Assembly: GCA_002294285.1 (NCBI GenBank)
Contig: DBFL01000079.1
Span: 1 to 14,886 of the forward strand
DNA from: Candidatus Neomicrothrix sp. UBA881
GTDB taxonomy: Bacteria; Actinomycetota; Acidimicrobiia; Acidimicrobiales; MedAcidi-G1
Length of the DNA stretch: 14,886 bases
Direction of reading: 5' to 3'
Shown piece after piece: positions 250 to 14,778 of this stretch (position 1 is the stretch's first letter; every line of letters begins with the position of its first letter). The position numbers and the translations under genes are program-made. The notes beneath the pieces were generated by a model. The model saw only the letters and a list, made by a program, of their open reading frames with translations, ran no database searches and was not told the DNA's origin.

Positions 250-624
250 TCAACTATTAACAATTTCGTCAACTTTTTGGCTGAGTGCTAAGGGATCTAT
301 AGGTTTGATTATCCAGCAATCCGCTTCAGAACGTTTTCCAAGAAACTCATCCGCTTCTCTGTCTAATAACATCAATACTTTTTGAGGGGGAATACGACCC
401 GCTCTTTGCTCAAGGCGAAGGTCAAGTGAAGTTGCCATGCCTCCCATATTTCCTATTTGAAGATCGAGAATTGTTAATACAGGAGCATTTTGAATAACAG
501 TTTCAAGTACTTCCACTCCTTCTTTTACCCATATGACATCATGATTTTGACTTAATGCAGCACAAACTTCTTTAAAAATATGATTTTCAGTACTTGCTAG
601 CAAAACTTTTGTTTTTTCAGGCAT
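250..624 (-). CDS. Stand-alone response-regulator receiver domain, partly degenerate
   Basis: This 124-residue protein is a single CheY-like receiver fold with no output domain. The phosphoacceptor appears to be D54 in ILDLQIGNMGG, and the conserved lysine is K107 in IIKPIDP. The acidic pair that binds Mg2+ is reduced: the first strand VLLAS is followed by T-E-N, so only E13 could serve. The switch Thr/Ser at the end of beta 4 is replaced by Leu (VLMLLD, 83-88). It may therefore be weakly phosphorylated or act as a phosphorylation-independent binding module. It is divergent from the STAS-domain gene that starts at 732, so the two may share a stress or partner-switching role, though no kinase is nearby. 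The ATG at 624 has no Shine-Dalgarno sequence; a TACGCT element lies 6 bases upstream, so the mRNA may be leaderless. Confidence 0.82.
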   Translation of the reverse strand: MPEKTKVLLASTENHIFKEVCAALSQNHDVIWVKEGVEVLETVIQNAPVLTILDLQIGNMGGMATSLDLRLEQRAGRIPPQKVLMLLDREADEFLGKRSEADCWIIKPIDPLALSQKVDEIVNS

Positions 625-1107: not shown

Positions 1108-2391
1108 ATGAGAGAAACAAAAACTTTAAACAAATTGTTTCGTGTAATTTTTGCATTTTCTGCAATTCTTCTAATTAATTTGTTTTCTAGCAATGCAGCA
1201 GCAGACTCGATGCCGGTTTCTACAAAAGGTGTAGTGGTGGTGGAAGCATCAGGCCTAATGGATCCAGTGATGTTTGAAATGATGATGGAAACGCTTGAAA
1301 AAGTAGATCCATCTGAGACTATTGCTTTGGTTTTTCAAGTTAATGTTTCTGGGAGCGTTATTGGGACTGAGGAAATAATTGAACTAGGTCAGGTAATAAC
1401 TTCTTCAAAGATACCAATTTCTTTTTGGGTGGGTCCTTCAGGAGCACGAGCAAAAGGACCAATCGCAGAACTAGCGTTGCTGAGTGGTGATGTAGGAATT
1501 TCACCCGGATCGAAGATTGGCAAGATCGGAAGCAATATTTTTTCATCGAGCAGTAATGCAGAAAAAACCGTCTTGGACTTAAGTGAAAAAACTTTCAACT
1601 ATAAGGAAGCTGTAGATAGTGGGATAGCAAGAAGTTCTCCAGTTTTGTTAGAGCACCTTGTTGGTCTAGAAGGCTTTGAAGTTATTTCAGATATTGAAAC
1701 AGGAGAAACAAAGCCATTGACTCAGACACGTTTTGAAGAAATGGATCCCATCGACCAGTTTTTTCATAGTGTGGCAAGTCCTGCTATCACCTACTTACTT
1801 TTCTTAGCTGGTATGGGATTGTTGATTTTTGAACTTTATACAGCCGGTGTAGGCATTGCAGGTGTTTTGGGGGCTTTATGCCTTTTACTTGGTTTTTATG
1901 GATTAGCAGTCTTACCATCTAACCCTTGGGGGTTGGCTCTACTCATTTTCTCTATGCTGGGATTTGCTATAGATGTTCAGACTGGTGTTCCAAGACTTTG
2001 GACAGGTATTGCAACTACAAGTTTGGTGACAGGTTCACTTCTATTATTCGACGGCGTATCACTCTCTTGGCTTACTTTACTCTTTGGCATTTTGTTAACA
2101 GTTATTTGCATGTCAGCGGGAATGCCAGCAATGATTCGTACTCGTTTCGCTACACCGACCATCGGTCGAGAATGGATGATTGGTGAAATAGGTATGGCTA
2201 TAGATGAGATAAATCCCAATGGAACAATCGAAGTAAAAGGAGCAATTTGGAAAGCTCAAACTAACAGAGCGACTCCCATCAAAGCCAAAGAGGAAATAAG
2301 AGTCGCGGCTGTGGATGGATTTTGGTTGCAAGTAGAGCCCTTAGAAGGAGCAGCTCGTGACTATAGAGAGCGCAGAGGTAAAAAGAAATAA
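1108..2391 (+). CDS. NfeD-family membrane protein with degenerate ClpP-like domain
   Basis: This 427-residue protein has the long-form NfeD (NfeD1b) layout. A signal-like hydrophobic segment spans about 11-32. A ClpP-class serine-protease-like domain spans about 40-195. Four or five membrane helices lie in about 224-340, and a C-terminal OB-fold-like NfeD domain spans about 350-412. The family signature WVGPSGARA is present (107-115), but the next residues read KGPIAEL where active members have an ASAG-type motif with the nucleophilic Ser; position 117 is Gly. The segment that normally holds the catalytic Lys is short. Proteolysis is therefore doubtful. Long NfeD proteins usually work with SPFH/stomatin partners in membrane quality control; none is seen here. 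It probably shares a transcript with the STAS gene. The ATG at 1108 has only a distant TAAGG (1081-1085), so the start is moderately sure. Confidence 0.85.
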   Translation: MRETKTLNKLFRVIFAFSAILLINLFSSNAAADSMPVSTKGVVVVEASGLMDPVMFEMMMETLEKVDPSETIALVFQVNVSGSVIGTEEIIELGQVITSSKIPISFWVGPSGARAKGPIAELALLSGDVGISPGSKIGKIGSNIFSSSSNAEKTVLDLSEKTFNYKEAVDSGIARSSPVLLEHLVGLEGFEVISDIETGETKPLTQTRFEEMDPIDQFFHSVASPAITYLLFLAGMGLLIFELYTAGVGIAGVLGALCLLLGFYGLAVLPSNPWGLALLIFSMLGFAIDVQTGVPRLWTGIATTSLVTGSLLLFDGVSLSWLTLLFGILLTVICMSAGMPAMIRTRFATPTIGREWMIGEIGMAIDEINPNGTIEVKGAIWKAQTNRATPIKAKEEIRVAAVDGFWLQVEPLEGAARDYRERRGKKK

Positions 2392-2411
2392 GAGACTACT
2401 TAGTTAGATTT

Positions 2412-4136
2412 TTAATTTTCTACTTTAGGAAGCCGAGGTCCGGCAATGCGAACATTTTCTCGCCTGCGAGTAATTCCATTCTCATCTAAATAGTTCAAAA
2501 GAGGCAATGCATGCTTTCTGGTATTGCCGGCTGCTTCCCTGAATTGTGAAACAGTAAAACCTTGGGGGGTTGATTGTAGAAGTTTTGCAGCCAGTAATGC
2601 AGCTTTTTCGATTGCTGTTGAAGAAAAAAAGATTCCATCTTTTTCAATAACAACTCCTTTGTGAATCATTTCGCGCAATTCAGAACGGCTTATATCAAGA
2701 GGATCCGGAGGGGCAAAAAGTGAAATTTCTAATTTTTCAACAAACGGATGATTAGAAGTCAGATCTTTATATTTTGCAAGTTTTAGTTTTCCACTATCGA
2801 TAATGACTTCTTCAACTAAGGAAACGGTTAATCTCTGTTTTTCATCCAATATAGAAAGTTCAATTCCAGATGATCCTGCAGATTCGGCTAGCTTTTTTAT
2901 TTCTTCAATTGCTGTCTGGAGGATTTCTGGATTCACAACCCAATTACCTACACTTGGTTCAATAGTTTCGCCTGTTAGTAGTTTTAGTTCTCCAACATCT
3001 ATCCAACCTCTTTCTTTGATGACTCGAGTTATTGAACGATCTGGTTTAGCTTTTGAGGCCTTTATTATTGGGTCAACATCGAGGACTTCACCACCGCCAA
3101 TAGTTTCTTCGCGTCCACTTTCACGCAAAATAAACCGATCACCCGGCAACAAGGGGAGAGGTTTTGACGTAAATAGTCTCACTAAACCAGTTGATCCAGG
3201 TTTAATTGAATTCGGTCCAAGAATCCTTAACCTTATTGGGTATTCACCCGATCCAAAGTAGGCGACGAATGAACCTCTACGTGATACATGGTGATCTAGA
3301 TCATCTAATACTTTTAATGACGCATCCAACATTTTAGTTAAATGCCATTGCTTCGGTTTAATTAATACATTTCCACGAGAAATATCAGTAGATGAAAGTC
3401 CGGTGATATTTACTGCGCATCGACTACCGGGTTGGATTTTTTCCTCGTCTAGATGATGTGATTGAAGTCCTCTGATTCTGACTTTTTCTCCTAAAGGCCA
3501 AACTTCTAGATCATCATCAATTTCAAAACTCCCACCTGAAAGAGTTCCTGTTACGACAGTTCCAGTTCCCTTAATTGAGAAAGAACGATCTACCCAAAGC
3601 CTTGGTCTTTCATGATCTTCTGGCTCATGCTCTTTACTAACAAGTTTCGATAGTTCTTCTAAGAGAGTGTCAATTCCAGTTCCATCTAAAGCGTTGGTTT
3701 TAACCAAAGGAGCATTTTCCAAGAAAGTGTTTTGAACTTTTTCTTTTATTTCTAAAAGGGAAAGTTCGGTAAGTTCATCGTCAGCTTGGTCTATTTTCGT
3801 TACAACTATTATTCCACTTTTAAATCCGAGTAATTCTAGGATTCGAAGGTGTTCCTCTGATTGAGGTTTCCATCCTTCAGTAGCCGCGACGATAAAAAGA
3901 CATGTTTGGACACTCCCAACACCGGCCAGCATATTTTTTAGAAACCTGACATGACCCGGCACGTCAATTATTGATAAAACATCTCCAGAAGACAACGTGG
4001 TCGAAGCGAAACCTAAGTCGATGGTTAAACCACGGATTTGTTCTTCTATAAATCGATCAGGATCTGATCCAGTTAAAGATTTAACAAGAGTAGATTTTCC
4101 ATGATCAACGTGTCCAGCAGTAGCTACTATGTGCAT
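2412..4136 (-). CDS. selB: Selenocysteine-specific translation elongation factor SelB
   Basis: SelB is the GTPase that carries Sec-tRNA(Sec) to the ribosome at UGA codons marked by a SECIS hairpin. The 574-residue protein starts with MHIVATAGHVDHGKST, with the P-loop GHVDHGKS at 8-15. The switch I motif GLTIDLGFA is at 36-44, DVPGH at 58-62 and TKID at 113-116. EF-Tu-like beta-barrel domains follow (IKGTGTVVTGTLSGG is the start of domain 2). Winged-helix repeats fill the C-terminal third and end in LPLLNYLDENGITRR, the SECIS-binding end typical of SelB. The length is slightly below the E. coli protein but all domains are there. The ATG at 4136 lies 18 bases after the selA stop, so the two are co-transcribed. 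It converges on the NfeD gene with a 20-base gap that has no clear terminator. Confidence 0.96.
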   Translation of the reverse strand: MHIVATAGHVDHGKSTLVKSLTGSDPDRFIEEQIRGLTIDLGFASTTLSSGDVLSIIDVPGHVRFLKNMLAGVGSVQTCLFIVAATEGWKPQSEEHLRILELLGFKSGIIVVTKIDQADDELTELSLLEIKEKVQNTFLENAPLVKTNALDGTGIDTLLEELSKLVSKEHEPEDHERPRLWVDRSFSIKGTGTVVTGTLSGGSFEIDDDLEVWPLGEKVRIRGLQSHHLDEEKIQPGSRCAVNITGLSSTDISRGNVLIKPKQWHLTKMLDASLKVLDDLDHHVSRRGSFVAYFGSGEYPIRLRILGPNSIKPGSTGLVRLFTSKPLPLLPGDRFILRESGREETIGGGEVLDVDPIIKASKAKPDRSITRVIKERGWIDVGELKLLTGETIEPSVGNWVVNPEILQTAIEEIKKLAESAGSSGIELSILDEKQRLTVSLVEEVIIDSGKLKLAKYKDLTSNHPFVEKLEISLFAPPDPLDISRSELREMIHKGVVIEKDGIFFSSTAIEKAALLAAKLLQSTPQGFTVSQFREAAGNTRKHALPLLNYLDENGITRRRENVRIAGPRLPKVEN

Positions 4137-4154
4137 GATTGAACTAGAAAAACC

Positions 4155-5444
4155 TCAAAGAATTGTTTTAATCGCTTTATCGATTAAAACATCATCAGTT
4201 GGATGCACAGTCATTAGATCTATAACAGTTTGGTCGTCATCCATACGGCAAATAATAGGTGGATCTTGCTGACGAAAGAATTCAACATGGTTACCTTCTA
4301 AATGTAAACCAGCAGAAGGTATTTCAACCCCTGGAAGAGTTCCACCGCCGGGGGTGGCAAAAGTTTTGGTAGCAAATTTTGGTTCTATATTTTTTGCTCT
4401 ATCAAATAGTTCATCTACTGAAGTGGTGGCCATTTTCCAAAAAGGAATAGAAGATCCTTCACGTTCCAAATAAGACAGAGTTACTTCCTGAAGTACAGAC
4501 ATAATCAGGTTGCCGGGGCGAAAAGCTCTAGAAAGAGGATGTTGCATACAAAGATCAATTAATTCTGTTTTTCCAGCGATAATTCCGGCTTGCGGTCCGC
4601 CGAATAACTTGTCACCGGAAAAAGTTACTATGTCAGCACCTGATTCTAAACTTTGACGTGCAGCAGGTTCACCTATAAGCCATTTTGGAGGTCCATCATC
4701 CAACCAAGGACAAGCTGCATCAAGTAATCCGGAACCAATATCAGCTAAAAGAGGAATTCCTAAATCTTTCATTTCAGAAATTTCAGTGGTTTCAGTAAAA
4801 CCAACAATTCGATAATTGGATTGATGAACTTTCAACACTAATGAAACTTCATTTTTGTTTACTGCTTTTTCGAAATCTTTCCGTCGTGTTCTATTAGTCG
4901 TTCCAACTTCGATTAATTTAGCTCCTGATTGTTCGATAATTTCAGGGATTCTAAATCCTCCACCAATTTCGACTAATTCACTTCTTGAAACTGCAACTCC
5001 TCGGTTTTGAGCCAGTGCTGCAATCACTAGAAGAACTGCCGAAGCACAGTTGTTGACTACTAACGCTGACTCTGCTCCACAAGAACGAGCGATTAATTTT
5101 GATGTTTTGTCATGTCTCGAACCGCGTTCTCCTGTTTCTAAATCCAATTCAAGATTTGAAAACCTGAACGCCTCGTCTCGATTTCCAATATTTAACGGAG
5201 CGCGACCCAAATTAGTGTGCAAAAGAACGCCAGTTGCATTAATAACGTCACTAATTAATCTTCTTGAAATCGATTCGCCTATTTTTCTCGCTTCTTCAAG
5301 TACATCATTCCCAACAGATCTATTTACTGCATCTCTAGCCGCATCAACTAGAAGCGGGTGAGGTAAACCTAAGTCGGAAATAGCGCGAGCTATTTGATCT
5401 ATTGAAGGCGGTCTTTCTGGAGTGGGTTTCGAGTTTTCAGACAT
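4155..5444 (-). CDS. selA: L-seryl-tRNA(Sec) selenium transferase SelA
   Basis: SelA is the PLP enzyme that converts seryl-tRNA(Sec) to selenocysteyl-tRNA(Sec) using selenophosphate. The 429-residue protein shows the family N-terminal region (RPPSIDQIAR, LPHPLLVDAAR) and the stretch INATGVLLHTNLGRAPL (68-84). The glycine and cysteine region NNCASAVLL and GGGFRIPEII are also present. The PLP-binding lysine is K279 in FSGDKLFGGPQAG. The C-terminal TPGGGTLPG and SAGLHLEG stretches complete the fold. It is a little shorter than the E. coli enzyme but has no visible gap in conserved parts. It is the first gene of selA-selB. The ATG at 5444 has only weak Shine-Dalgarno complementarity (GAAGA). A plausible sigma-70-like promoter lies just upstream. 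selD and selC are not in the window. Confidence 0.96.
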   Translation of the reverse strand: MSENSKPTPERPPSIDQIARAISDLGLPHPLLVDAARDAVNRSVGNDVLEEARKIGESISRRLISDVINATGVLLHTNLGRAPLNIGNRDEAFRFSNLELDLETGERGSRHDKTSKLIARSCGAESALVVNNCASAVLLVIAALAQNRGVAVSRSELVEIGGGFRIPEIIEQSGAKLIEVGTTNRTRRKDFEKAVNKNEVSLVLKVHQSNYRIVGFTETTEISEMKDLGIPLLADIGSGLLDAACPWLDDGPPKWLIGEPAARQSLESGADIVTFSGDKLFGGPQAGIIAGKTELIDLCMQHPLSRAFRPGNLIMSVLQEVTLSYLEREGSSIPFWKMATTSVDELFDRAKNIEPKFATKTFATPGGGTLPGVEIPSAGLHLEGNHVEFFRQQDPPIICRMDDDQTVIDLMTVHPTDDVLIDKAIKTIL

Positions 5445-6079: not shown

Positions 6080-9016
6080 ATGACAGATCCAGACCTTGAA
6101 ATTAGATCAGACAAATTTGATCGGAATAGTCGTGTGATAGTAACTGATCCTGGCGCGGTTCCATATGTTGATTTGCAGCCAGAAAGTTTTTCGCAAATTA
6201 TTTCTTCAAACAAAAAATTAGCTGACCGTTCTGATTGGATTGTTCAAACTCCAGTGGGTTTATTGGTTCATGGTTACAAACAGACAAGGTCGATACTAAG
6301 AGATCAGCGGTGGATTTCTGTTCTGTCAGGTATCTCAATGCTTGATTCTTTAGAGTCAACAGCTTCTGATTTAAATGTTCTATTTGAACGAGCTCGTCGG
6401 TCAATTCCGGACGTTGAAATTCCTACAAATTTTACAATCAGACCAAATGTTCTATCTGTTGAAGGTGAAGATCATCGACGCCTCCGAAAACTAGTCAATC
6501 CATCATTTAACTCTAAAAACGCAGATCGATTGAGACCATTTATGCGCGAATATGCAATTGAGCTAGTTGAATCATTTTTAAAAAAAGAAACAAGTGAAAT
6601 CGTTCAGGATTTTTGTCGTCCATATCCCATACCAATCATCTGTCGACTTCTGGGTGCAAATGACAAAGATTGGGAGAGTTTTGATCATTGGGCGGATGTT
6701 ATTTTCTCTGCTTTAGATGCAGATACCGATGCTGTAATAAATCGTTTAGATGAAGTTTCAAATGCGCAAAAAGAACTTGATGAATATATAAAAACCTTAA
6801 TTGAGGAGCGCTCTAGAAATCCACAAGAAGATCTAGTTTCAGAACTAATTCAAAATCAGGTAGATGGTGACCGTCTAAGTTCAGATGAACTTGTCGCCAT
6901 GGTAGAGGCTCTTTTATTAGCAGGCACCGACACAACCAGAAATCAGCTAGGTGCAATAATTGCAGTTCTAGCAGACCACCCCGAGCAATACTCACTTCTA
7001 AATGGCAATCATGACCTCATTCCAGCTGCTGTCGAAGAATCACTTAGGTATATAGGTGCTGTGAGGACGACTGCACGTTTGGCTGTTGAAGACATTGAAT
7101 TTGAGGGAAAAATATTTCCAGCAGGAACCACAGTTTTTTTGGGTCTCCATTCAGCAAGTCTTGCCGAAACTGATGATCCTGATGGTTACTCTTTCAATAT
7201 TCTGCGAGAGCGTGAATGTCCGCATCTGGCTTTCGGTAGTGGTGCTCATCATTGCTTAGGAGCATTCCTCGCGCGAGCCGAACTTCAAGAGGCTCTAAAA
7301 GTTTTTGTCGAAAGAATCCCGAGATTGAATTTAATAAGCCCAGTTGAATGGAAACCATTGTCTATGGGCATATGGGGACCAAGCCGTCTTGAAATTGCTT
7401 TTCAGGATTTATCAAGCAACAAAGTTTTTACAGCTGGAACGAACGATAACATCGAAAAAAATCCAATCACAGGTCACATATCTGAAAAAGACGAAGACTT
7501 ATTAATAAGAGAATCTTCCAAAAAACGTTTTGAAATTCAAAAATCAATTCCGTATTTGATTCAACGACCCAAGTTTCCTCCTATCCGGAGACTATTAAAA
7601 ACTGTGTTTACTTTTGGAAAAGCTTTTATTACCTGGAAAATAGTTGACGCACGAAAAGAAAACGAAGTAAAGAAAACTGTTCTATATAGAAGAGTTAGAG
7701 AAGCAGCAGAACAGTTAGGGCCGACGTATGTCAAACTTGCACAATTAATTTCAGCAGCTGAGGGGGTATTTCCAGATGCTTTAATTGAGGAGTGCAAAAA
7801 ATGTCGAGATGAGGTTCAAGCAGAAACATGGTCAACTGCAAGGAAAACTATTGAAAATGAACTGGGCCCTCTAAATGATATTTTCAAATCAGTAGATCCA
7901 ATTCCGATAGCAGCAGCTTCCATCGCCCAAGTTCATTCAGCAATACTGCATGATGATTCTTCAGTAGTTGTAAAAGTTCAAAGACCGAAAATTCAAGATC
8001 AAGTAATAAGTGATCTGAAAGTCCTAGCATGGTTAGCTCCAAAATTTGTGGGAAGAATTCCCGTTGCGGCTTTAACAAATCCACCTGCTTTAGTGGAGCT
8101 ATTTGCGGAAACAATTTGTGAAGAGTTGGATTTTAATCTTGAAGTAGCAAATCTTTTCGAATTGGAACGAGCTTTAAGAGCAAACCCCAAAAATTCTTGG
8201 GAATTTCCGATACCGAACTTAGATTACGTAACGTCGAGAATTATTGTTATGAGTGCAGTTGAGGGAGTTTCACTCGGCAACGCAAATGAAATGCATCTGG
8301 AAGTCGAAGAAATTTCGGATGTTTTCCGCCAAATGGTTGATGGTTTATTAGAAGGGGCGGTCATTCATGGAATCTTCCATGGTGATTTTCATGCAGGAAA
8401 CGTATTTTTAAACCACGAGAAAAAAATAGGACTTGTTGATTTCGGTATAACTGGAAGGTTGAATGGTGAACGCAGGATTGCTTTTCTTCGCTATGTCGTA
8501 GGTTTGATGACTGGCGATGCAGAAGCTCAGATTTCAGGCTTACGTGACCTTGGAGCATTTCCAGATGATTCTGATATCAAAACGTTGATTAAAGATTTCA
8601 AATTAGAACGAGACGATTTTGATCCTCTAGAAATGAGTGAAGAAGAATTTGTTGCAGAGATACGCCTTTTGGTTAAAGACCTTTTAACTCACGGAGCTCG
8701 GATTCCTAAAGAACTAATGCTTTTCGTTAAAAACTTTGCTTATCTTTCTTCTGTAATCCAAGATCTTCACCCAGAAATGGACCTACTTGAAGAGTTCGAA
8801 AAAATTTCATCAAGTTTTTTCACTCGTAATGGGGTCCGAGTCGCTACAGAAGTTGGTTTTTCAGTAACAACTGATGATATTTCAGATCAGTCACTGAGAA
8901 GAGTTGCAGGTATCCGAAACAGTGAAAGAACTTTAACTTGGAGTGCTTTACAAAACCGTAGAAATGAAGCAATTGAACGTTTACCTGTCAGATCTGTGGT
9001 CGAGGAAATCTCATAG
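6080..9016 (+). CDS. Fusion protein: cytochrome P450 + ABC1/UbiB-type atypical kinase
   Basis: One uninterrupted frame of 978 residues joins two complete enzymes. Residues about 25-440 are a class-typical bacterial P450. The I-helix AGTDTT is at 281-286, the ExxR pair is E320/R323, and the heme loop FGSGAHHCLG is at 385-394 with thiolate ligand C392. A charged linker (about 441-520) leads to an ABC1/ADCK/UbiB domain. There LGPTYVKLAQ (546-555) is a KxGQ variant with Ala for Gly. The Ala-rich loop AAASIAQVH starts at 611 and the ATP lysine is K632 in VVVKVQRP. EELDF follows, then the catalytic HGDFHAGN (767-774) and DFG (787-789). No membrane helix is obvious. There is no Met between about 429 and 725, so an internal ATG start for the kinase half is excluded. 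An upstream in-frame TTG at 6074 is possible, but the ATG at 6080 is preferred. P450s hydroxylate lipophilic compounds; UbiB/COQ8 proteins support quinone-lipid biosynthesis. Substrate and redox partner are unknown. Confidence 0.93.
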   Translation: MTDPDLEIRSDKFDRNSRVIVTDPGAVPYVDLQPESFSQIISSNKKLADRSDWIVQTPVGLLVHGYKQTRSILRDQRWISVLSGISMLDSLESTASDLNVLFERARRSIPDVEIPTNFTIRPNVLSVEGEDHRRLRKLVNPSFNSKNADRLRPFMREYAIELVESFLKKETSEIVQDFCRPYPIPIICRLLGANDKDWESFDHWADVIFSALDADTDAVINRLDEVSNAQKELDEYIKTLIEERSRNPQEDLVSELIQNQVDGDRLSSDELVAMVEALLLAGTDTTRNQLGAIIAVLADHPEQYSLLNGNHDLIPAAVEESLRYIGAVRTTARLAVEDIEFEGKIFPAGTTVFLGLHSASLAETDDPDGYSFNILRERECPHLAFGSGAHHCLGAFLARAELQEALKVFVERIPRLNLISPVEWKPLSMGIWGPSRLEIAFQDLSSNKVFTAGTNDNIEKNPITGHISEKDEDLLIRESSKKRFEIQKSIPYLIQRPKFPPIRRLLKTVFTFGKAFITWKIVDARKENEVKKTVLYRRVREAAEQLGPTYVKLAQLISAAEGVFPDALIEECKKCRDEVQAETWSTARKTIENELGPLNDIFKSVDPIPIAAASIAQVHSAILHDDSSVVVKVQRPKIQDQVISDLKVLAWLAPKFVGRIPVAALTNPPALVELFAETICEELDFNLEVANLFELERALRANPKNSWEFPIPNLDYVTSRIIVMSAVEGVSLGNANEMHLEVEEISDVFRQMVDGLLEGAVIHGIFHGDFHAGNVFLNHEKKIGLVDFGITGRLNGERRIAFLRYVVGLMTGDAEAQISGLRDLGAFPDDSDIKTLIKDFKLERDDFDPLEMSEEEFVAEIRLLVKDLLTHGARIPKELMLFVKNFAYLSSVIQDLHPEMDLLEEFEKISSSFFTRNGVRVATEVGFSVTTDDISDQSLRRVAGIRNSERTLTWSALQNRRNEAIERLPVRSVVEEIS

Positions 9017-9022: not shown

Positions 9023-9397
9023 ATGCGATACACAGAATCTTCAAAAAGTATTCAAAATACAGTTATTTATGATGGTGGTTGTGGTCTGTGTCAAAGTCTT
9101 GCTTCATGGGCTTCAGAAAAGACGGTAAAAGATTTAAAATTTATTGATTCTGAATCGATAGAACCTGAAAATTATGGACTCAGTCGAAAAGATTTCGATA
9201 AATATATATGGCTAATACAGTCTGACCAGAAAAAAATTAAAGGAGTTTTTGCGATTGCAGAAATTTTAAAACGAATGGGATTTAGTTGGATGATCTTGGG
9301 TTTCATTATTTTGACACCCCCATTCTCTTTTGCTGCTACTGGCGTTTATGCCTTGGTTGCGAAAAATCGTAAGCGATTCGGAAATTGTTGTTCTTAA
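9023..9397 (+). CDS. DCC-family thiol-disulfide oxidoreductase (DUF393)
   Basis: This 124-residue protein carries the family signature YDGGCGLCQ (16-24), a CxxC redox pair (C20, C23) near the N-terminus preceded by a beta strand. The family is named for its Asp-Cys-Cys residues and is predicted to be thioredoxin-like; a firm substrate is not known. A hydrophobic stretch (about 88-112) near the end is usual for the family and could touch the membrane. The last residues, GNCCS, add two adjacent cysteines. The gene begins 6 bases after the P450-ABC1 stop, with a ribosome binding site overlapping that stop. It ends exactly where the photolyase begins, so all three are very likely on one transcript. 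A redox role beside a P450, or in the photo-oxidative set downstream, is an inference. Confidence 0.85.
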   Translation: MRYTESSKSIQNTVIYDGGCGLCQSLASWASEKTVKDLKFIDSESIEPENYGLSRKDFDKYIWLIQSDQKKIKGVFAIAEILKRMGFSWMILGFIILTPPFSFAATGVYALVAKNRKRFGNCCS

Positions 9398-10750
9398 GTG
9401 AGCAAACCAGTAATCATAGTTTTTACAAGAGACCTACGGATTCGTGATAATCCAGCTCTTGTCGAAGCAGTTGCAACAAAAAGACCATTATGCGCCCTTT
9501 TTGTTTTTGATGATGCAATCATTGAAAACAAAAATCTGAGTTCTAACCGAATGGGATTTCTGATTGATTCTTTAAAAGATCTCGAAATGTCTTTAAATAA
9601 ATTTGGTTTGGATCTTATTTTTCGTAGGGGCAACTGGGTTGAAGAGGTCACAAAGTTGGCAAAAGAGATCAATGCAGAACATATTCACATGTCGGCTGAT
9701 TTCAGCCTTGTAGCAAAAAAACGTCAAGAAGCACTTAGTAAAGCTGGAGATTTAAATGGATTCAAAGTATTCCAACATCAAGGGGTTTCTGTACTAGAAC
9801 CTGGTTTTGTGACTCCGACAGATGGTAGTGAATACAAAATTTTTACACCTTATTATCGTCGATGGTCTACAGCTACTTGGAGAAAGCCTCTAGGAGTACC
9901 AGAGTCAATTAAAAGTATCCCAATAGAAAAAAATGGTATTGAAATTTTTGAAGAACTTAAAAGAAAAAACTTTTCACCAGATTTGTTAAAAGGTGGTGAA
10001 AGCGAAGGAATCGTAAGATTAAAAGATTGGATGGCAAAGGAACTAAATGATTATGAAAAAGGGCGCGATGATATAGGAGCTGATCGGACATCGCGTCTTT
10101 CCCCTTATTTGCATCTAGGTTGTATTTCTCCTTTAGAGGTAGCGCTACAAGCATTGAAGTTAGGTGGCGATGCTTTTGTTAGGCAATTGTGTTGGCGTGA
10201 CTTTTATCTTCAAATTTTGGATCAGAGACCAGATGTTTCGCACAATGATTATCGAGACCGGAAATACAAATGGAACCAAGATTTTGAAGCATTAAACCTA
10301 TGGAAAGAAGGTCAAACTGGCTTTCCAATAGTTGATGCAGGTATGCGGCAATTATTATCTGAAGGTTTTATGCACAATAGGGTAAGAATGGTTGTTGCAT
10401 CTTTTCTCACAAAGGACTTACACATAGATTGGCGGCACGGGGCAGGGCATTTCATGAATTATTTGGTCGATGGTGACATAGCTTCCAATCAATTGAATTG
10501 GCAATGGGTTGCTGGAACAGGGACAGACAGCAACCCTAATCGGATTTTCAATCCGACTCGTCAGAGTGAAAAATTCGACAAGGATGGAAATTACATCCGT
10601 AGGTGGGTTCTGGAATTAAAAGATGTCGATTCAAAAGAAATACATGAACCCAACAGTGAAATTCGGTTAGAGAAAAAATATCCGAAACCCATTGTCGACC
10701 ATCATGAAGCAATTTCGATTTATAAGTCAAAGTATTCTGGTAGTCGTTGA
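9398..10750 (+). CDS. phr: Deoxyribodipyrimidine photolyase, class I (CPD photolyase)
   Basis: This enzyme repairs UV-induced cyclobutane pyrimidine dimers using blue light and FAD. The 450-residue protein starts with the antenna-binding Rossmann domain (VIIVFTRDLRIRDNPAL, 5-21). The FAD-binding helical domain includes TSRLSPYLHLGCIS (231-244), RQLCWRDFY (262-270) and TGFPIVDAGMRQL (307-319). It continues with MHNRVRMVVASFLTKDL (325-341) and WRHGAG, then NWQWVAGTGTD (367-377) and RIFNPTRQSEKFD (382-394). The tryptophans around 345-370 are placed as in the electron-transfer chain of class I photolyases. Length and motifs fit CPD photolyase better than DASH cryptochrome, but lesion preference cannot be proved by reading. 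The GTG start at 9398 abuts the TAA of the DCC gene; no strong ribosome binding site is seen, so coupled translation is likely. Confidence 0.95.
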   Translation: MSKPVIIVFTRDLRIRDNPALVEAVATKRPLCALFVFDDAIIENKNLSSNRMGFLIDSLKDLEMSLNKFGLDLIFRRGNWVEEVTKLAKEINAEHIHMSADFSLVAKKRQEALSKAGDLNGFKVFQHQGVSVLEPGFVTPTDGSEYKIFTPYYRRWSTATWRKPLGVPESIKSIPIEKNGIEIFEELKRKNFSPDLLKGGESEGIVRLKDWMAKELNDYEKGRDDIGADRTSRLSPYLHLGCISPLEVALQALKLGGDAFVRQLCWRDFYLQILDQRPDVSHNDYRDRKYKWNQDFEALNLWKEGQTGFPIVDAGMRQLLSEGFMHNRVRMVVASFLTKDLHIDWRHGAGHFMNYLVDGDIASNQLNWQWVAGTGTDSNPNRIFNPTRQSEKFDKDGNYIRRWVLELKDVDSKEIHEPNSEIRLEKKYPKPIVDHHEAISIYKSKYSGSR

Positions 10751-10768: not shown

Positions 10769-11179
10769 ATGGCAATCTTTTCTCCGCAAGAAATAGCCCC
10801 CTCACTTAATGATTTTCTTAGCGAAAGACATTTAGCGATCTTGACTTTAGTAAGAAACGATGGGAAGCCACATTCAACCCCTGTTGGATTCATGTGGGAC
10901 GATGATGAAAAAACTGTAAAGATAATCACTTGGTCAGGGAGTCTGAAATCTCGCCTTCTTGAAAAGGGGAGTCTTGATGGAACAATTTCTCAGGTAGATG
11001 GTGGCCGGTGGGTGACATTTGAAGGTAAGTGTTCAGTTACGAATGATTCGGTTATCTGCACAGATGCAATCGAAAGATACTCCGTGAGATATCAACAGCC
11101 AAAAGATCGAGGTGATGAACGAAGAACGATAGTGATGTCTGTAAATCGGATACTTTCCAGTGCTGGATTAGCACCTTAA
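10769..11179 (+). CDS. PPOX-class F420-dependent oxidoreductase-like protein
   Basis: This 136-residue protein has the split beta-barrel fold of the pyridoxamine-phosphate-oxidase (PPOX) superfamily. Its motif order is typical of small F420-dependent members from Actinobacteria: FLSERHLAILTLVRNDGKPH (16-35), STPVGFMWD, SGSLKSRLLE (56-65), DGGRWVTFEG (77-86) and a paired RY..RY (103-108). Such enzymes bind deazaflavin F420, FMN or a related cofactor and usually act as dimers in the cytoplasm; the substrate is not evident. The name F420-dependent rests on family resemblance, since flavin-binding relatives look similar at this length. It starts 18 bases after the photolyase and ends the plus-strand operon. 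Its stop overlaps the stop of the convergent FAD-enzyme gene by 4 bases, leaving no room for a separate terminator. Confidence 0.85.
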   Translation: MAIFSPQEIAPSLNDFLSERHLAILTLVRNDGKPHSTPVGFMWDDDEKTVKIITWSGSLKSRLLEKGSLDGTISQVDGGRWVTFEGKCSVTNDSVICTDAIERYSVRYQQPKDRGDERRTIVMSVNRILSSAGLAP

Positions 11180-12414
11180 ATTTGTTGCTTTAAACAAAGT
11201 TCAGCTGTTCTTCTACCTGACACCATGGCTCCCTGGATTGATGGTGTATCTCTATGATCTCCGCACATGAAAACTCCATCACTAATTTTTATTTCTTTTC
11301 TAAATGAATCCTTAGGTCGTAAAGCGGGTTGACCATGTTCGATTGAAAAAGTCTTTAGGTGCTTCCAATCATCGACCATGTCACCGAACCATTTTTTCAT
11401 TTGTGTGACGACAGGTTCAGTTGAATCACACACAAGTTGTCCAGGTATTGCTACAGCGATCAAAGCTTCATTTGTAGAAGAATATGAAGAAGAAACATTT
11501 GTCATGATTGCCACGTTGAGCCCTGGACCTCCGTTTTCTCCATCAAGAAGAATTGCTCTGGATTTAATCGGTGCTTCTGGAGCCGAAAAATAAACACATG
11601 ATACAGACTTGGAAGGGGTGATTTCATTACCAAATAATTTTGCTGCTGCAGGGTTTTCTGTAGCAATTATCAAATTAGAAGGCGAAAAGGATTCTCCTTC
11701 TGAAATAAAAATTTTCTTACCTTCGATTTTTTCAACCGATGCATTGAGGAGAACATTGTTTTCTCCTACTTTTCTTAAAAGCTGCTGACTAATTGCACCC
11801 ATTCCTCTTTCAGGGACTGCTGCATCTCCAAGAAATAACATTTTCAGTATCAGTAGAGAAAGTCTTGCAGAACCATTGAGTTCGGGATCTAATTGAATTC
11901 CACCGATCAGAGGTTTAAAAAAGCTGTCAATGGCTTTCGTGGAGAATCCAAATTTGCCTAAAGTTTCAATAATTCGTTGATCATCTTTTCTATTGGTGTA
12001 GAAGTTTTTCTCTTTCATTAATTCGTATCTCAATTGCAGCAGTTTTATTTTGTCGGTAAATGTTATTGTTCTTGTAAATATGGTTGGAGCTATTGATGAG
12101 AAATTTCTAAACGGGTCACCAATTAGTGAAAATGTTCCGTTTTTGAAAATTGTCGCCCCAGGTTCAAAAGTTTTCAGGTTTAAAGAAGAAAGGTCTAGTT
12201 GATTATGAACTTCGGGGTAAGCGGTTAATAGAACTTGAAAACCGTGATCAAGTAGAAAACCCTCATACATATCGGTTTTCACACGTCCACCCACCGAATT
12301 AGATTTTTCGACCAGTAAAACTTCTTTATTATTTTCACTTAAAATTTTTGCAGCTGTTAACCCAGCAATTCCTGCTCCAACAACCACAAACTCAGGAGAT
12401 GAAAGTGCAGTCAA
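11176..12414 (-). CDS. FAD-dependent amine-oxidase-like oxidoreductase
   Basis: This 412-residue protein belongs to the flavin amine oxidase / phytoene desaturase / protoporphyrinogen oxidase superfamily. The N-terminal Rossmann motif VVGAGIAGLTAA has glycines at 13, 15 and 18, an adenosine-ribose acidic residue at E36 (LLVEKS), and VGGRVKTD (41-48). The substrate-domain signature ERGMGAISQQL and the C-terminal FAD motif CGDHRDTPSIQGAMVSGRRTAE (from about 384) are intact. The substrate is not identifiable; desaturation or oxidation of a lipid or isoprenoid is plausible by family. It is the last gene of the minus-strand operon, 25 bases after DUF1295. The start is TTG (12414-12412). No ATG or GTG in frame lies between the upstream gene and the Rossmann motif, so a rare start must be used. 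Its end overlaps the PPOX gene by 4 bases. Confidence 0.88.
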   Translation of the reverse strand: MTALSSPEFVVVGAGIAGLTAAKILSENNKEVLLVEKSNSVGGRVKTDMYEGFLLDHGFQVLLTAYPEVHNQLDLSSLNLKTFEPGATIFKNGTFSLIGDPFRNFSSIAPTIFTRTITFTDKIKLLQLRYELMKEKNFYTNRKDDQRIIETLGKFGFSTKAIDSFFKPLIGGIQLDPELNGSARLSLLILKMLFLGDAAVPERGMGAISQQLLRKVGENNVLLNASVEKIEGKKIFISEGESFSPSNLIIATENPAAAKLFGNEITPSKSVSCVYFSAPEAPIKSRAILLDGENGGPGLNVAIMTNVSSSYSSTNEALIAVAIPGQLVCDSTEPVVTQMKKWFGDMVDDWKHLKTFSIEHGQPALRPKDSFRKEIKISDGVFMCGDHRDTPSIQGAMVSGRRTAELCLKQQI

Positions 12415-12439: not shown

Positions 12440-13306
12440 TTATTTAGGTGGTCTTGGGATTAGAACAGGTGTTGCTTCTTTGTATTCCAGAAATCTAGGG
12501 TCATCTCCCCATCGTTTTCTAGCAGCTGAATCGAGCATTGGTATTCCGCTGATCCGTGTTAGGAGGAGAAACACAAAAACAGGTGAAATAAGGGTGAAGT
12601 GCTGCCAACTTGATAGACCAGGAAGCGCTACGAGAGAAATTCCTATCCATAAGACAATTTCTCCAAAATAGTTCGGGTGTTGTGACCAACCCCATATTCC
12701 CTCAGTAATGAACGAGTTTTGGTTTGAGGGATCCATTTTAAATCTTCTCTTTTGTTCATCGGCGATAATTTCAATAACAAAACCGGTTAACCAGAGAATA
12801 ATTCCAATAATTCCAATAATTCCAAAGTCATTGCGTTCGCTAGCAGTAATTGCTGCTAAAGCGGCTGAAGAGGTGAGTAAAACCCAAAGACCTTGAACAG
12901 TCCAACTCATTAAAAACCATGCGAATTTATGTTTTATTAAATTGAAGCGGGCATCATGTCCTACTGCCTGTACACGCGCAAAAAGGAAAGTTCCTAAGCG
13001 CAAGCCCCATAAACAAATCATCAGACCCAAAAGAACAGATCTAGTATCAATCTCAGGGACTGCTAGAAGTGCGACCACAGTAACAGTCATATAAGTTGCT
13101 GAACCAACAAGATCGAAGAAACGTTCTGAATGTAAGAACCAAGACGGTATAAAACAAATCCATTGAATTCCGAAAGCAATAAGTCCACATATTGCAAAAA
13201 GACGGATACCAGACGCGTCAACTCCGTTACTGCTACCTGCGAGGATTATTAACAATGCAGCAACCAAACTTACGGCAATTGCAAAAATTGAATTTTTAGT
13301 AGTCAT
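12440..13306 (-). CDS. DUF1295 membrane protein (steroid 5-alpha-reductase/ICMT-like)
   Basis: This 288-residue protein is mostly hydrophobic, with about seven membrane segments (for example 6-24, 33-53, 89-108, 133-154, 162-181 and 236-252). The C-terminal core GIWGWSQHPNYFGE (203-216) and the late EYKEATPVLIPRPPK end are the signature of DUF1295. The family is related to 3-oxo-5-alpha-steroid 4-dehydrogenases and isoprenylcysteine methyltransferases. The reaction is not established: NAD(P)H-dependent reduction or methyl transfer on a lipid are the two family options. Its start ATG overlaps the stop of the upstream SDR gene in the sequence ATGA (13306-13303), so translation is probably coupled. 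The in-frame run GII-GII-GII at 162-170 is encoded by three identical 9-base units. Confidence 0.88.
   Translation of the reverse strand: MTTKNSIFAIAVSLVAALLIILAGSSNGVDASGIRLFAICGLIAFGIQWICFIPSWFLHSERFFDLVGSATYMTVTVVALLAVPEIDTRSVLLGLMICLWGLRLGTFLFARVQAVGHDARFNLIKHKFAWFLMSWTVQGLWVLLTSSAALAAITASERNDFGIIGIIGIILWLTGFVIEIIADEQKRRFKMDPSNQNSFITEGIWGWSQHPNYFGEIVLWIGISLVALPGLSSWQHFTLISPVFVFLLLTRISGIPMLDSAARKRWGDDPRFLEYKEATPVLIPRPPK
12797..12823. repeat. Three perfect 9-bp tandem units inside the DUF1295 gene
   Basis: AATAATTCC occurs three times without a break on the plus strand; read as coding sequence on the minus strand it is (Gly-Ile-Ile)3. Copy number could change by slippage without shifting the frame, lengthening or shortening one membrane helix. 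Confidence 0.9.
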
Positions 13307-14778
13307 GAATTCAAGTCTATTTCTGCTCCGGCAATAATTTTTGAAAGCATCGATCTAAAAATTAATGAATGAGGGATTAAGAGTGCAAACCAATAAAGCC
13401 TTCCTATTACGCCACGTGGAACAAACTGTGCTCTTTGTTCAACTAAACAGCCCTTTTCTAAATCTGTTACCGACCACCCCAACCACGCGTGACCTGGGAT
13501 AAGCATTTCTGCTCTTAGCAGTAGTGAATTACTGTCAACTTTTACAACAGTAAAAAAATCAACTGGGTCACCAACGCGGAGTTCAGTAGGGTGTCTTCTG
13601 CCTCGTCTTAGACCAACACCGCCCACCATTTTGTCTATGAAGCCACGAACAGCCCATAACCGGTTAAAGGTAAACCAACCAGTATCGCCACCAATAGTTC
13701 TAATAGTTGACATTACTTGATCACTTGACGCTGTTGAATTTTGTTTTCGCGAATCAAACAGAACTCTACCTCCAGACCAATCCGGATCACTTAATTCTGG
13801 CAATTCAGCTATTTGGACTTTGCCAGGATCTGACCATCGTGTAGGAATTTGAAGATCTTGCACTCTAGTTAAGGCACGACCAATTGAATTATGCAAGTTA
13901 TCCGGCTCATGGTCAAAGGCAGCTGAAATAGGATTGCTGCCTATAACAACATCCGAGGTAAGTGAATCAATTAGTGCACGGGCTAGACGAATAGGCAGGG
14001 GGCTTGTCAAATTTACCCAGTGAGAAGAGAGTCGAGGGGTCAAAACAGGAACGGGAACAATTATTCGCTTTTTGAGACCTGCTACCTCTGCATAGGTATG
14101 CATCATTTCCTTATAGGTCAAAACATCAGGACCACCTACATCAAAAACTTTTCCAAGAGATTTTTTACTTCCCAGAACAGACACTAAATAGAACAAAACA
14201 TCACTTATTGCTACAGGTTGGCAACGAGTTTTGGTTACCCATTTTGGAACTATCATGACCGGGAGTATCTCAACCAGTGATCTGAGCATTTCAAATGAAG
14301 CGCTTCCCGATCCAATAATTATTGCTGCTCTTAGTTCAGTTACAGGTGTAATTCCACTTGCTAAAATCTCGCCGACTTTCTGACGACTAGTTAAATGTCG
14401 TGACAGATTACCTTTTTCTTCTCCAAGACCACCTAGATATATAATCTGTTTTATTTGGTTAACTTCTGTAGCAGCAATGAAAGTTTTAGCCATTGAAGCT
14501 TCTAAATCCTCAAAATTAGATGAAACTGCCATTGAATGGACCAAATAGTATGCTCTGTCCACTCCTCTAAGCGCTTCAATAACTTGATCTTCAATATTTA
14601 AATCACAAGTAAAAACTTCAACTTGAGATCGCCAAGGTCTGTCATCGAGAGCTTTAGAATTCCTAACGATGCATCTAACTCTGTATCCAGTTTTAAGAAG
14701 GCGAGGAATTAATCTTCCACCGACATATCCGGTTGCACCGGTAACTGCTATTAATTCAGTTCCATTATCGTTAGTCAC
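13303..14778 (-). CDS. Atypical NmrA-like SDR with C-terminal DUF2867 domain
   Basis: This 491-residue protein has two domains. Residues about 8-300 form an NAD(P)-binding extended/atypical short-chain dehydrogenase with the motif TGATGYVGGRL (GxxGxxG, 14-20), DRAYYLVHSM, IIYLGGLGE and LRAAIIIGSGSASFEMLR. The usual catalytic YxxxK is not obvious, as in NmrA-like sensors and quinone-related SDRs. Residues about 340-485 match DUF2867, an SRPBCC-like ligand-binding fold: GDTGWFTFNRLWAVRGFID, then VGGVGLRRGRRHP and LRVGDPVDFFTV. This architecture is often annotated as NAD(P)H-binding/DUF2867 and occurs beside photolyase and DUF1295 genes in other bacteria. It is the first gene of the minus-strand operon. 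The start is GTG at 14778, with AGGA (14787-14784) five bases upstream, so the start is well supported. Confidence 0.88.
   Translation of the reverse strand: MTNDNGTELIAVTGATGYVGGRLIPRLLKTGYRVRCIVRNSKALDDRPWRSQVEVFTCDLNIEDQVIEALRGVDRAYYLVHSMAVSSNFEDLEASMAKTFIAATEVNQIKQIIYLGGLGEEKGNLSRHLTSRQKVGEILASGITPVTELRAAIIIGSGSASFEMLRSLVEILPVMIVPKWVTKTRCQPVAISDVLFYLVSVLGSKKSLGKVFDVGGPDVLTYKEMMHTYAEVAGLKKRIIVPVPVLTPRLSSHWVNLTSPLPIRLARALIDSLTSDVVIGSNPISAAFDHEPDNLHNSIGRALTRVQDLQIPTRWSDPGKVQIAELPELSDPDWSGGRVLFDSRKQNSTASSDQVMSTIRTIGGDTGWFTFNRLWAVRGFIDKMVGGVGLRRGRRHPTELRVGDPVDFFTVVKVDSNSLLLRAEMLIPGHAWLGWSVTDLEKGCLVEQRAQFVPRGVIGRLYWFALLIPHSLIFRSMLSKIIAGAEIDLNS

Follow-up and report, generated by a model that had tools for sequence, protein, structure and literature searches.

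A cytochrome P450 fused to an ABC1 domain in actinobacteria and the genes that accompany it

The window analysed here is the whole of a 14,886-nucleotide stretch of DNA from Candidatus Neomicrothrix sp. UBA881 (contig DBFL01000079.1, assembly GCA_002294285.1). It holds a gene that encodes a cytochrome P450 and an ABC1 domain in one polypeptide, referred to below as the fusion. Genes for a DCC1-like protein, a DNA photolyase and several putative redox proteins follow it (Table 1).

Table 1. The fusion gene, its motifs and the genes downstream of it in the window
Feature	Position	Strand	Residues	Basis or remark
Whole fusion gene, stop included	6080..9016	+		single open frame (6074/6080-9016); ATG at 6080 gives 978 aa
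P450 domain	6080..7399	+	1-440	PF00067, motifs, Foldseek
I-helix AGTDTTRN	6920-6943	+	281-286 (AGTDTT)	P450 motif
ExxR	7037-7048	+	320-323 (ESLR)	P450 motif
Heme loop FGSGAHHCLG	7232-7261	+	385-394 (heme Cys 392)	P450 motif
Variable linker	7400..7525	+	441-482	dN/dS above both halves
ABC1/COQ8-type kinase-like domain	7526..9013	+	483-978	PF03109, Foldseek
Amphipathic helix	7583-7645	+	502-522	ABC1 half, ahead of core
KLAQ	7733-7744	+		ABC1 half
AAAS	7910-7921	+	611-614	ABC1 half
Lys632	7973-7975	+	632	ABC1 half
HGDFHAGN	8378-8401	+	767-774	ABC1 half
DFG	8438-8446	+	787-789	ABC1 half
DCC1-like gene	9023..9397	+		PF04134, E 4.7e-16; 6 bases downstream of fusion
DNA photolyase	9398..10750	+		PF00875, PF03441; abuts DCC1-like gene (0 bases)
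PNPOx-like protein	10769..11179	+		PF01243; homologue in the L065 light cluster
Flavin amine oxidase, HpnE-like	11176..12414	-		PF01593; f91 homologue directly upstream of fusion
DUF1295 protein	12440..13306	-		PF06966, E 1.3e-56; homologues in clusters
SDR-DUF2867 protein	13303..14778	-		PF11066, PF13460; homologues in clusters

The fusion protein and its conservation

An initial annotation of this DNA had proposed that the two domains share one polypeptide and that each half carries its full set of catalytic motifs, and both proposals are borne out. Pfam finds p450 (PF00067, residues 111-411, E 4e-28, 98.8 bits against a cut-off of 22.8) and ABC1 (PF03109, residues 575-816, E 3e-49, 167.8 bits against 22.9) in the 978-aa frame. 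The features by which a P450 is recognised, namely the I-helix acid-alcohol pair, ExxR and the heme cysteine, are all present, as are the motifs named for the ABC1 half. A structural model (mean predicted local distance difference test score, pLDDT, 76) has a P450 fold, matched by Foldseek to AurH (3p3l, TMt 0.82) and P450BioI (3ejb_H, TMt 0.86). The model of the ABC1 half (pLDDT 84.8, from a 46-row alignment) matched COQ8A (5i35, E 7.7e-13, TMt 0.73), indicating a COQ8-type fold. The helix at residues 502-522 holds the most amphipathic 18-mer of the whole chain. A transmembrane anchor was ruled out, the top 19-residue hydropathy being 1.31.

The annotation's naming of the second half as ABC1/UbiB held for the family only: the fusion scores 260.2 bits with the UbiB equivalog model TIGR01982, under the cut-off of 487.55, and is therefore an ABC1-family protein but no UbiB by that model. 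KxGQ, which we take to be the ABC1 family signature, is replaced by KLAQ in all 95 fused rows, fragments among them. We rejected KLAQ as a change specific to the fusion, because about half of the unfused ABC1 relatives share it (of 103, KLAQ in 54, KLGQ in 45 and 4 outside the pattern used). The stretch free of methionine, put at about residues 429-725, was right for the linker and slightly too long at its far end: methionines lie at 429 and then at 724, which leaves the linker without any ATG start.

A search with the whole protein returned 111 hits, of which 93 (the query included) have both Pfam domains, so the domain pair that the annotation had suggested looking for across genomes occurs in 92 further database proteins, 49-91% identical to the fusion. 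The fusion of MedAcidi-G1 is 79% identical to that of the window. The other hits comprise 15 P450s without ABC1, one protein without a Pfam call, and P0095 and P0096, which have an ABC1 call and no P450 call and still retain the heme motif. In rows P0002-P0096 (n=95, some of them fragments) the heme motif is present in 95, AGTDTTRN in 91 and HGDFHAGN or HGDLHAGN in 93. Independent genomes show the identical frame layout without internal stops. Chance and assembly error or frameshift are excluded because 93 of the 111 hits have two domains and the uninterrupted frame recurs in many separate genomes; an assembly or annotation artefact, for which we found no point in favour, is thereby refuted and has a negligible probability. 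The annotation had named separate genes in close relatives as evidence that would overturn the fusion. No two-gene state was found in relatives: 14 of 48 genomes of the window's family match, none of them split. An apparent split pair in genome G511 was rejected, since the halves are parted by a run of N (421 N in the first 1800 bases), a sequencing gap.

Descent, selection and distribution

To place the fused proteins we built quick LG+G4 trees from thinned alignments, with 33 of the 86 usable fused rows and either 28 unfused P450s or 25 unfused ABC1s. In the tree of each half the fused rows lie on one side of one branch (SH-aLRT 100). This is compatible with a single origin of the fusion, which it does not prove. 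The distances of the two halves are correlated (r 0.95, 55 rows), with none of 999 permutations as high. In six pairs the ratio of nonsynonymous to synonymous substitution rates (dN/dS) lay at 0.035-0.082 in the P450 half and at 0.038-0.071 in the ABC1 half; the values of two pairs are rough, their synonymous sites being almost saturated. Purifying selection is strong on both halves. The linker gave 0.13-0.40 in the five pairs where it was computable. Both halves appear catalytically competent and have been kept together, which fits a functional partnership. The initial annotation's interpretation, in which the kinase-like domain would hand a lipophilic substrate to the P450 or ATP turnover would gate its access, is partly supported.

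The fusion was found in three families of one actinobacterial order in the samples searched, and its carriers include marine and sponge-associated actinobacteria. The 14 matches in the window's family, 12 over both halves and two (G397, G402) cut by contig ends, fall in genera g1 (6/9), g2 (5/8) and g5 (3/17), with 0/14 in the other three genera. The order sample gave 29 matches in 397 genomes (f1 3, f74 12, f91 14), those in G511 and G543 being interrupted by N or a contig end. Family f91 has matches in 25 of 39 genomes; one further genome, G1072, has a copy cut by a contig start and a run of 334 N. One f91 genus, g216, is called Poriferisodalis-like here on the strength of P0060, a protein named Candidatus Poriferisodalis (84-87%). 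As an observation apart, genome G610 (f74) holds two copies on different contigs (L129 and L130); either true paralogy or a bin of mixed strains could explain this.

In the phylum sample (396 genomes) and the class sample (395 genomes) the fusion was found in the window's own genome only. These even draws missed carriers known from the family and order searches and are therefore weak evidence that the fusion is absent outside the order. A further 79 genomes of the class sample match, over the ABC1 part only; these unfused relatives are 43-46% identical (E<=1e-120). No stand-alone ABC1 of the fusion's kind was found in the 48 genomes of the window's family (E<=1e-60). The window's own genome is 80% complete, and no ABC1-type gene besides the fusion was found in it, because its other two ABC1 hits reach 186.5 and 143.5 bits as Ser/Thr protein kinases, far above their 39 and 37 bits for ABC1.

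Genes beside the fusion

Light-type genes adjoin the fusion in two families. In f91 without g216 (28 genomes), 15 genomes carry the fusion and a CarH-like B12 regulator side by side, and the remaining 13 show neither at the thresholds used. In the whole of f91 the regulator occurs in 15 of 39 genomes and adjoins the fusion in all of them; G1072 was rejected as a regulator genome lacking the fusion, as its cut fusion lies on a small contig. At these 15 loci, several on contigs that end early, an amine oxidase gene lies directly upstream in 11 (three of the other four are cut by contig starts), and SDR-DUF2867 is near in 10, DUF1295 in 13 and photolyase in 7. Two of the three fusion genomes of g5 have, directly next to the fusion, the gene of a 273-274-aa protein with helix-turn-helix and B12-binding domains, in the order fusion, regulator, SDR-DUF2867 and, further on, photolyase. 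The gaps between fusion and regulator, taken with longest-frame starts, are -11, -4 (five times), 0, 11 and 18 bases in the nine pairs, and this adjacency suggests co-expression. PF12728 and PF02607 exceed their cut-offs in all seven regulators scanned and PF02310 in four. The motif Wx9EH, presumably that of the CarH photosensor, is present in all ten regulators checked.

Photolyase (PF03441) occurs in 11 of the 48 window-family genomes, and 10 of these 11 carry the fusion; of the 17 g5 genomes, the same three hold both. The two genes lie on different contigs in G418, G404 and G406. The eleventh photolyase genome, G412, has no fusion. Its locus (L077, 6569-13009) holds an interrupted photolyase frame, a CarH-like regulator, an intact heliorhodopsin (PF18761, E 1.3e-87) and a fasciclin gene, and the heliorhodopsin, between regulator and fasciclin gene, occupies the slot held by the fusion in G419 and G430. 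G430 has an intact heliorhodopsin elsewhere. In G418 a 25-aa heliorhodopsin C-terminus with an internal stop lies directly upstream of the fusion (L066, 17193-17267, minus strand; 80% over 25 aa, E 6.8e-6 over 14 loci), and at the same place in G419 there is a 12-aa match that is weak alone (E 4.2). Heliorhodopsin may thus once have preceded the fusion in the genus of G418 and G419. Type-1 rhodopsin was rejected as a linked trait, as it occurs in only 3 of the 48 genomes, all three fusion carriers.

The DCC1-like gene beside the fusion in the window belongs to PF04134, which we take to be the former DUF393; it lies between fusion and photolyase, is present in L012 and was not seen in L013 or L073. 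The other lineages have other neighbours: FKBP, cNMP-binding and SDR genes in f74, SDR genes in g216, and tRNA-editing and CysS/MshC-like genes in g2, where a photolyase-related DPRP gene is present at three of five loci. Loci L139-L144 were examined for six named genes only. In one g2 locus (L069, 7039-8232, minus strand), a gene beside a full CysS gene has MshC, the mycothiol ligase, as its best model, under that model's cut-off and over the CysS cut-off.

Comparable sets of genes are known. Around heliorhodopsin genes, passages of PMC8612252 and PMC11109279 describe photolyase, MerR-type regulators, SDR, amine oxidase and DUF393, and a core set of the RpoE-ChrR photo-oxidative response comprises SDR, flavin amine oxidase and photolyase, according to passages of PMC5507510. 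CarH/LitR, heliorhodopsin and RpoE-ChrR sets, as far as these passages describe them, share with the fusion clusters photolyase, flavin amine oxidase, SDR, the B12 regulator, DCC1/DUF393 and heliorhodopsin. In contrast to the fusion clusters, P450, UbiB and ABC1 are absent from the main texts of PMC8612252 and PMC11109279. The apparent light-response surroundings of the fusion, overlooked in the initial annotation, are the most informative evidence on what it may be for.

Proposed function and alternatives

AurH, OleP, MycG, PikC and P450BioI share the full P450 fold and motifs with the fusion at 25-30% identity; unlike it, they have no C-terminal ABC1 domain. Natural P450 fusions of the P450-BM3 type carry their redox partner C-terminally on one chain, whereas in the fusion this place is taken by a kinase-like domain that binds ATP, and not by a reductase or ferredoxin. 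Mycobacterial Rv3197 and MSMEG_1954, whose group is presumably the macrolide-binding ATPase MABP-1, are the best solved-structure sequence hits for the ABC1 half and have similar folds, but they stand alone, and the fusion scores 74 bits against the MABP-1 model's cut-off of 800. With COQ8A/COQ8B (ADCK3/4) and UbiB the fusion has in common PF03109, the COQ8A fold, the Ala-rich loop, and the catalytic and DFG motifs; it differs in being joined to a P450, in having KLAQ for KxGQ and in scoring far under the UbiB equivalog cut-off. COQ8 assists a pathway that includes a ferredoxin-driven monooxygenase (PMC7615680, in part), and the fusion likewise pairs ABC1 with a monooxygenase. The literature searched (open-licence PMC) gave no description of a P450 fused to ABC1, UbiB or AarF; the domain pair is already visible in database domain calls. 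PMC10205998, as far as its passages go, surveys the P450s of the window genome's family and reads the P450s of these ocean bacteria as tools for recalcitrant carbon; its main text mentions neither UbiB nor ABC1.

We favour, with slightly less than even confidence, a single enzyme in which a soluble-type P450 acts as a light- or photo-oxidation-linked lipid monooxygenase and a tethered COQ8-like ATPase aids access of the substrate. We infer that the fusion ancestrally belonged to a light-response operon with a CarH-like regulator, near photolyase and lipid and redox enzymes. In several lineages such an operon, with its B12 regulator and photolyase, would include the fusion. The ABC1 half would dock on the membrane through the amphipathic helix and spend ATP on pulling a highly hydrophobic substrate towards the P450 or presenting it there; isoprenoid, quinone, carotenoid, retinoid or photo-damaged lipid are candidates. 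The P450 would hydroxylate this substrate with electrons from a separate ferredoxin. In this picture the induction by light, the class of substrate, the docking on the membrane, the supply of electrons by ferredoxin and the coupling to ATP are all inferred. In a reconstituted metabolon with the ferredoxin-driven monooxygenase COQ6, COQ8 increases and streamlines CoQ synthesis; CoQ intermediates, cardiolipin and the COQ6:COQ3 pair all stimulate its ATPase (PMC7615680, in part). By analogy with this metabolon, the ABC1 half may handle a membrane lipid with ATP while the P450 oxidises it, both within a light response. A fuller form, in which the lipid monooxygenase is light-inducible, brings its own ATP-driven substrate loader and serves marine actinobacteria of sunlit waters in remodelling isoprenoids of the membrane or lipids damaged by light, is possible but on balance doubtful.

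Several observations weigh against this reading. Four of the 14 window-family fusion genomes lack PF03441 (in one, G402, the contig ends inside the fusion), and the association of fusion with photolyase (Fisher p 1.5e-6) ignores descent; a sunlit niche could also explain it, as could, in g1, the physical linkage of the two genes together with missing contigs. The heliorhodopsin remnant of G418, taken alone, falls under the profile cut-off (E 9.1e-4). The NCBIfam CarH equivalog model was not reached by the one regulator scanned, that of L064 (44.5 bits against 400). In the window's family the regulator was found (E<=1e-8) in 3 of 48 genomes, only two of them fusion carriers; it was found neither in the remaining 12 of the 14 fusion genomes, the window's own included, nor anywhere in the window's genus or in g2. 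It was likewise not found in g216 (0/11), and none of the 13 fusion loci of f74 (12 genomes) or the five of g2 showed it as a neighbour. The absences in the window's family and g216 led us to reject the regulator as a trait of all fusion genomes. Light control is therefore not universal and may be absent in the window's genome. The two domains may also be simply co-expressed.

That last thought can be taken further: the chain may serve only to co-express two independent activities, the ABC1 half doing the normal job of a stand-alone actinobacterial ABC1 and the P450 a different one. The linker is variable, no other ABC1-type gene was found in the window's own genome, and the unfused relatives, present in 79 of 395 class-sample genomes, were not seen at E<=1e-60 in the window's family, where the fusion may have replaced them. 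However, the fusion is intact in three families with no split pair among the 14 family matches, and in 34 of the 48 family genomes, many of them incomplete, neither form was seen, a point against an essential housekeeping role. We regard this explanation as unlikely. A little less probable still is that the ABC1 half is a regulatory switch that carries no substrate and gates the P450, or the electrons supplied to it, through binding or hydrolysis of ATP or through phosphorylation. Its kinase-type catalytic motifs are kept, and COQ8B phosphorylates COQ3, not the monooxygenase COQ6, in vitro (PMC7615680, in part). The COQ8-type fold, however, resembles proteins with a lipid-responsive ATPase, and the linker is the least conserved part, so no regulated segment is evident between the halves. 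Action on retinal or carotenoids for a rhodopsin system is improbable. It would account for heliorhodopsin in the matching G412 locus, elsewhere in G430 and as a remnant by the fusion in G418, and for type-1 rhodopsin in three fusion genomes, but 10 of the 14 window-family fusion genomes show neither rhodopsin type (the G418 remnant uncounted), and macrolide, polyketide and fatty-acyl oxidases are among the solved P450s nearest to the fusion.

What COQ8 does physiologically in CoQ biosynthesis has been called unclear, and COQ8 is hypothesised to organise the metabolon (PMC7615680, in part). A natural ABC1-monooxygenase chain offers a defined client, a fixed stoichiometry and a heme spin shift as readout, and ATP-dependent substrate loading is therefore directly testable with it. 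If the proposed loading by the ABC1 half is right, an ABC1/COQ8-family protein names its own client by physical fusion. The chain also offers a way to learn how COQ8-like proteins serve a partner enzyme. The operon evidence points to light and photo-oxidation as the condition to look under.

Some further observations concern other genes. Three database P450s have odd architectures (P0097, P0100 and P0105), with partners that we take to be alanine-dehydrogenase and homoserine-dehydrogenase domains and a macro domain; these may be gene-prediction artefacts. Locus L072 encodes an 859-aa sulfatase plus DJ-1/PfpI protein (1525-4104, minus strand) with homologues in three other g1 loci. In the window, SelB and SelA genes lie side by side (2412-5444, minus strand), both above their NCBIfam cut-offs, so that this marine actinobacterium probably makes selenoproteins. 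A STAS-domain protein (PF01740; 732-1079, plus strand) is encoded next to a response-regulator-like protein that scores under its cut-off (250-624, minus strand); the pair is kept with the locus in genus g1 and lies near the locus in L064.

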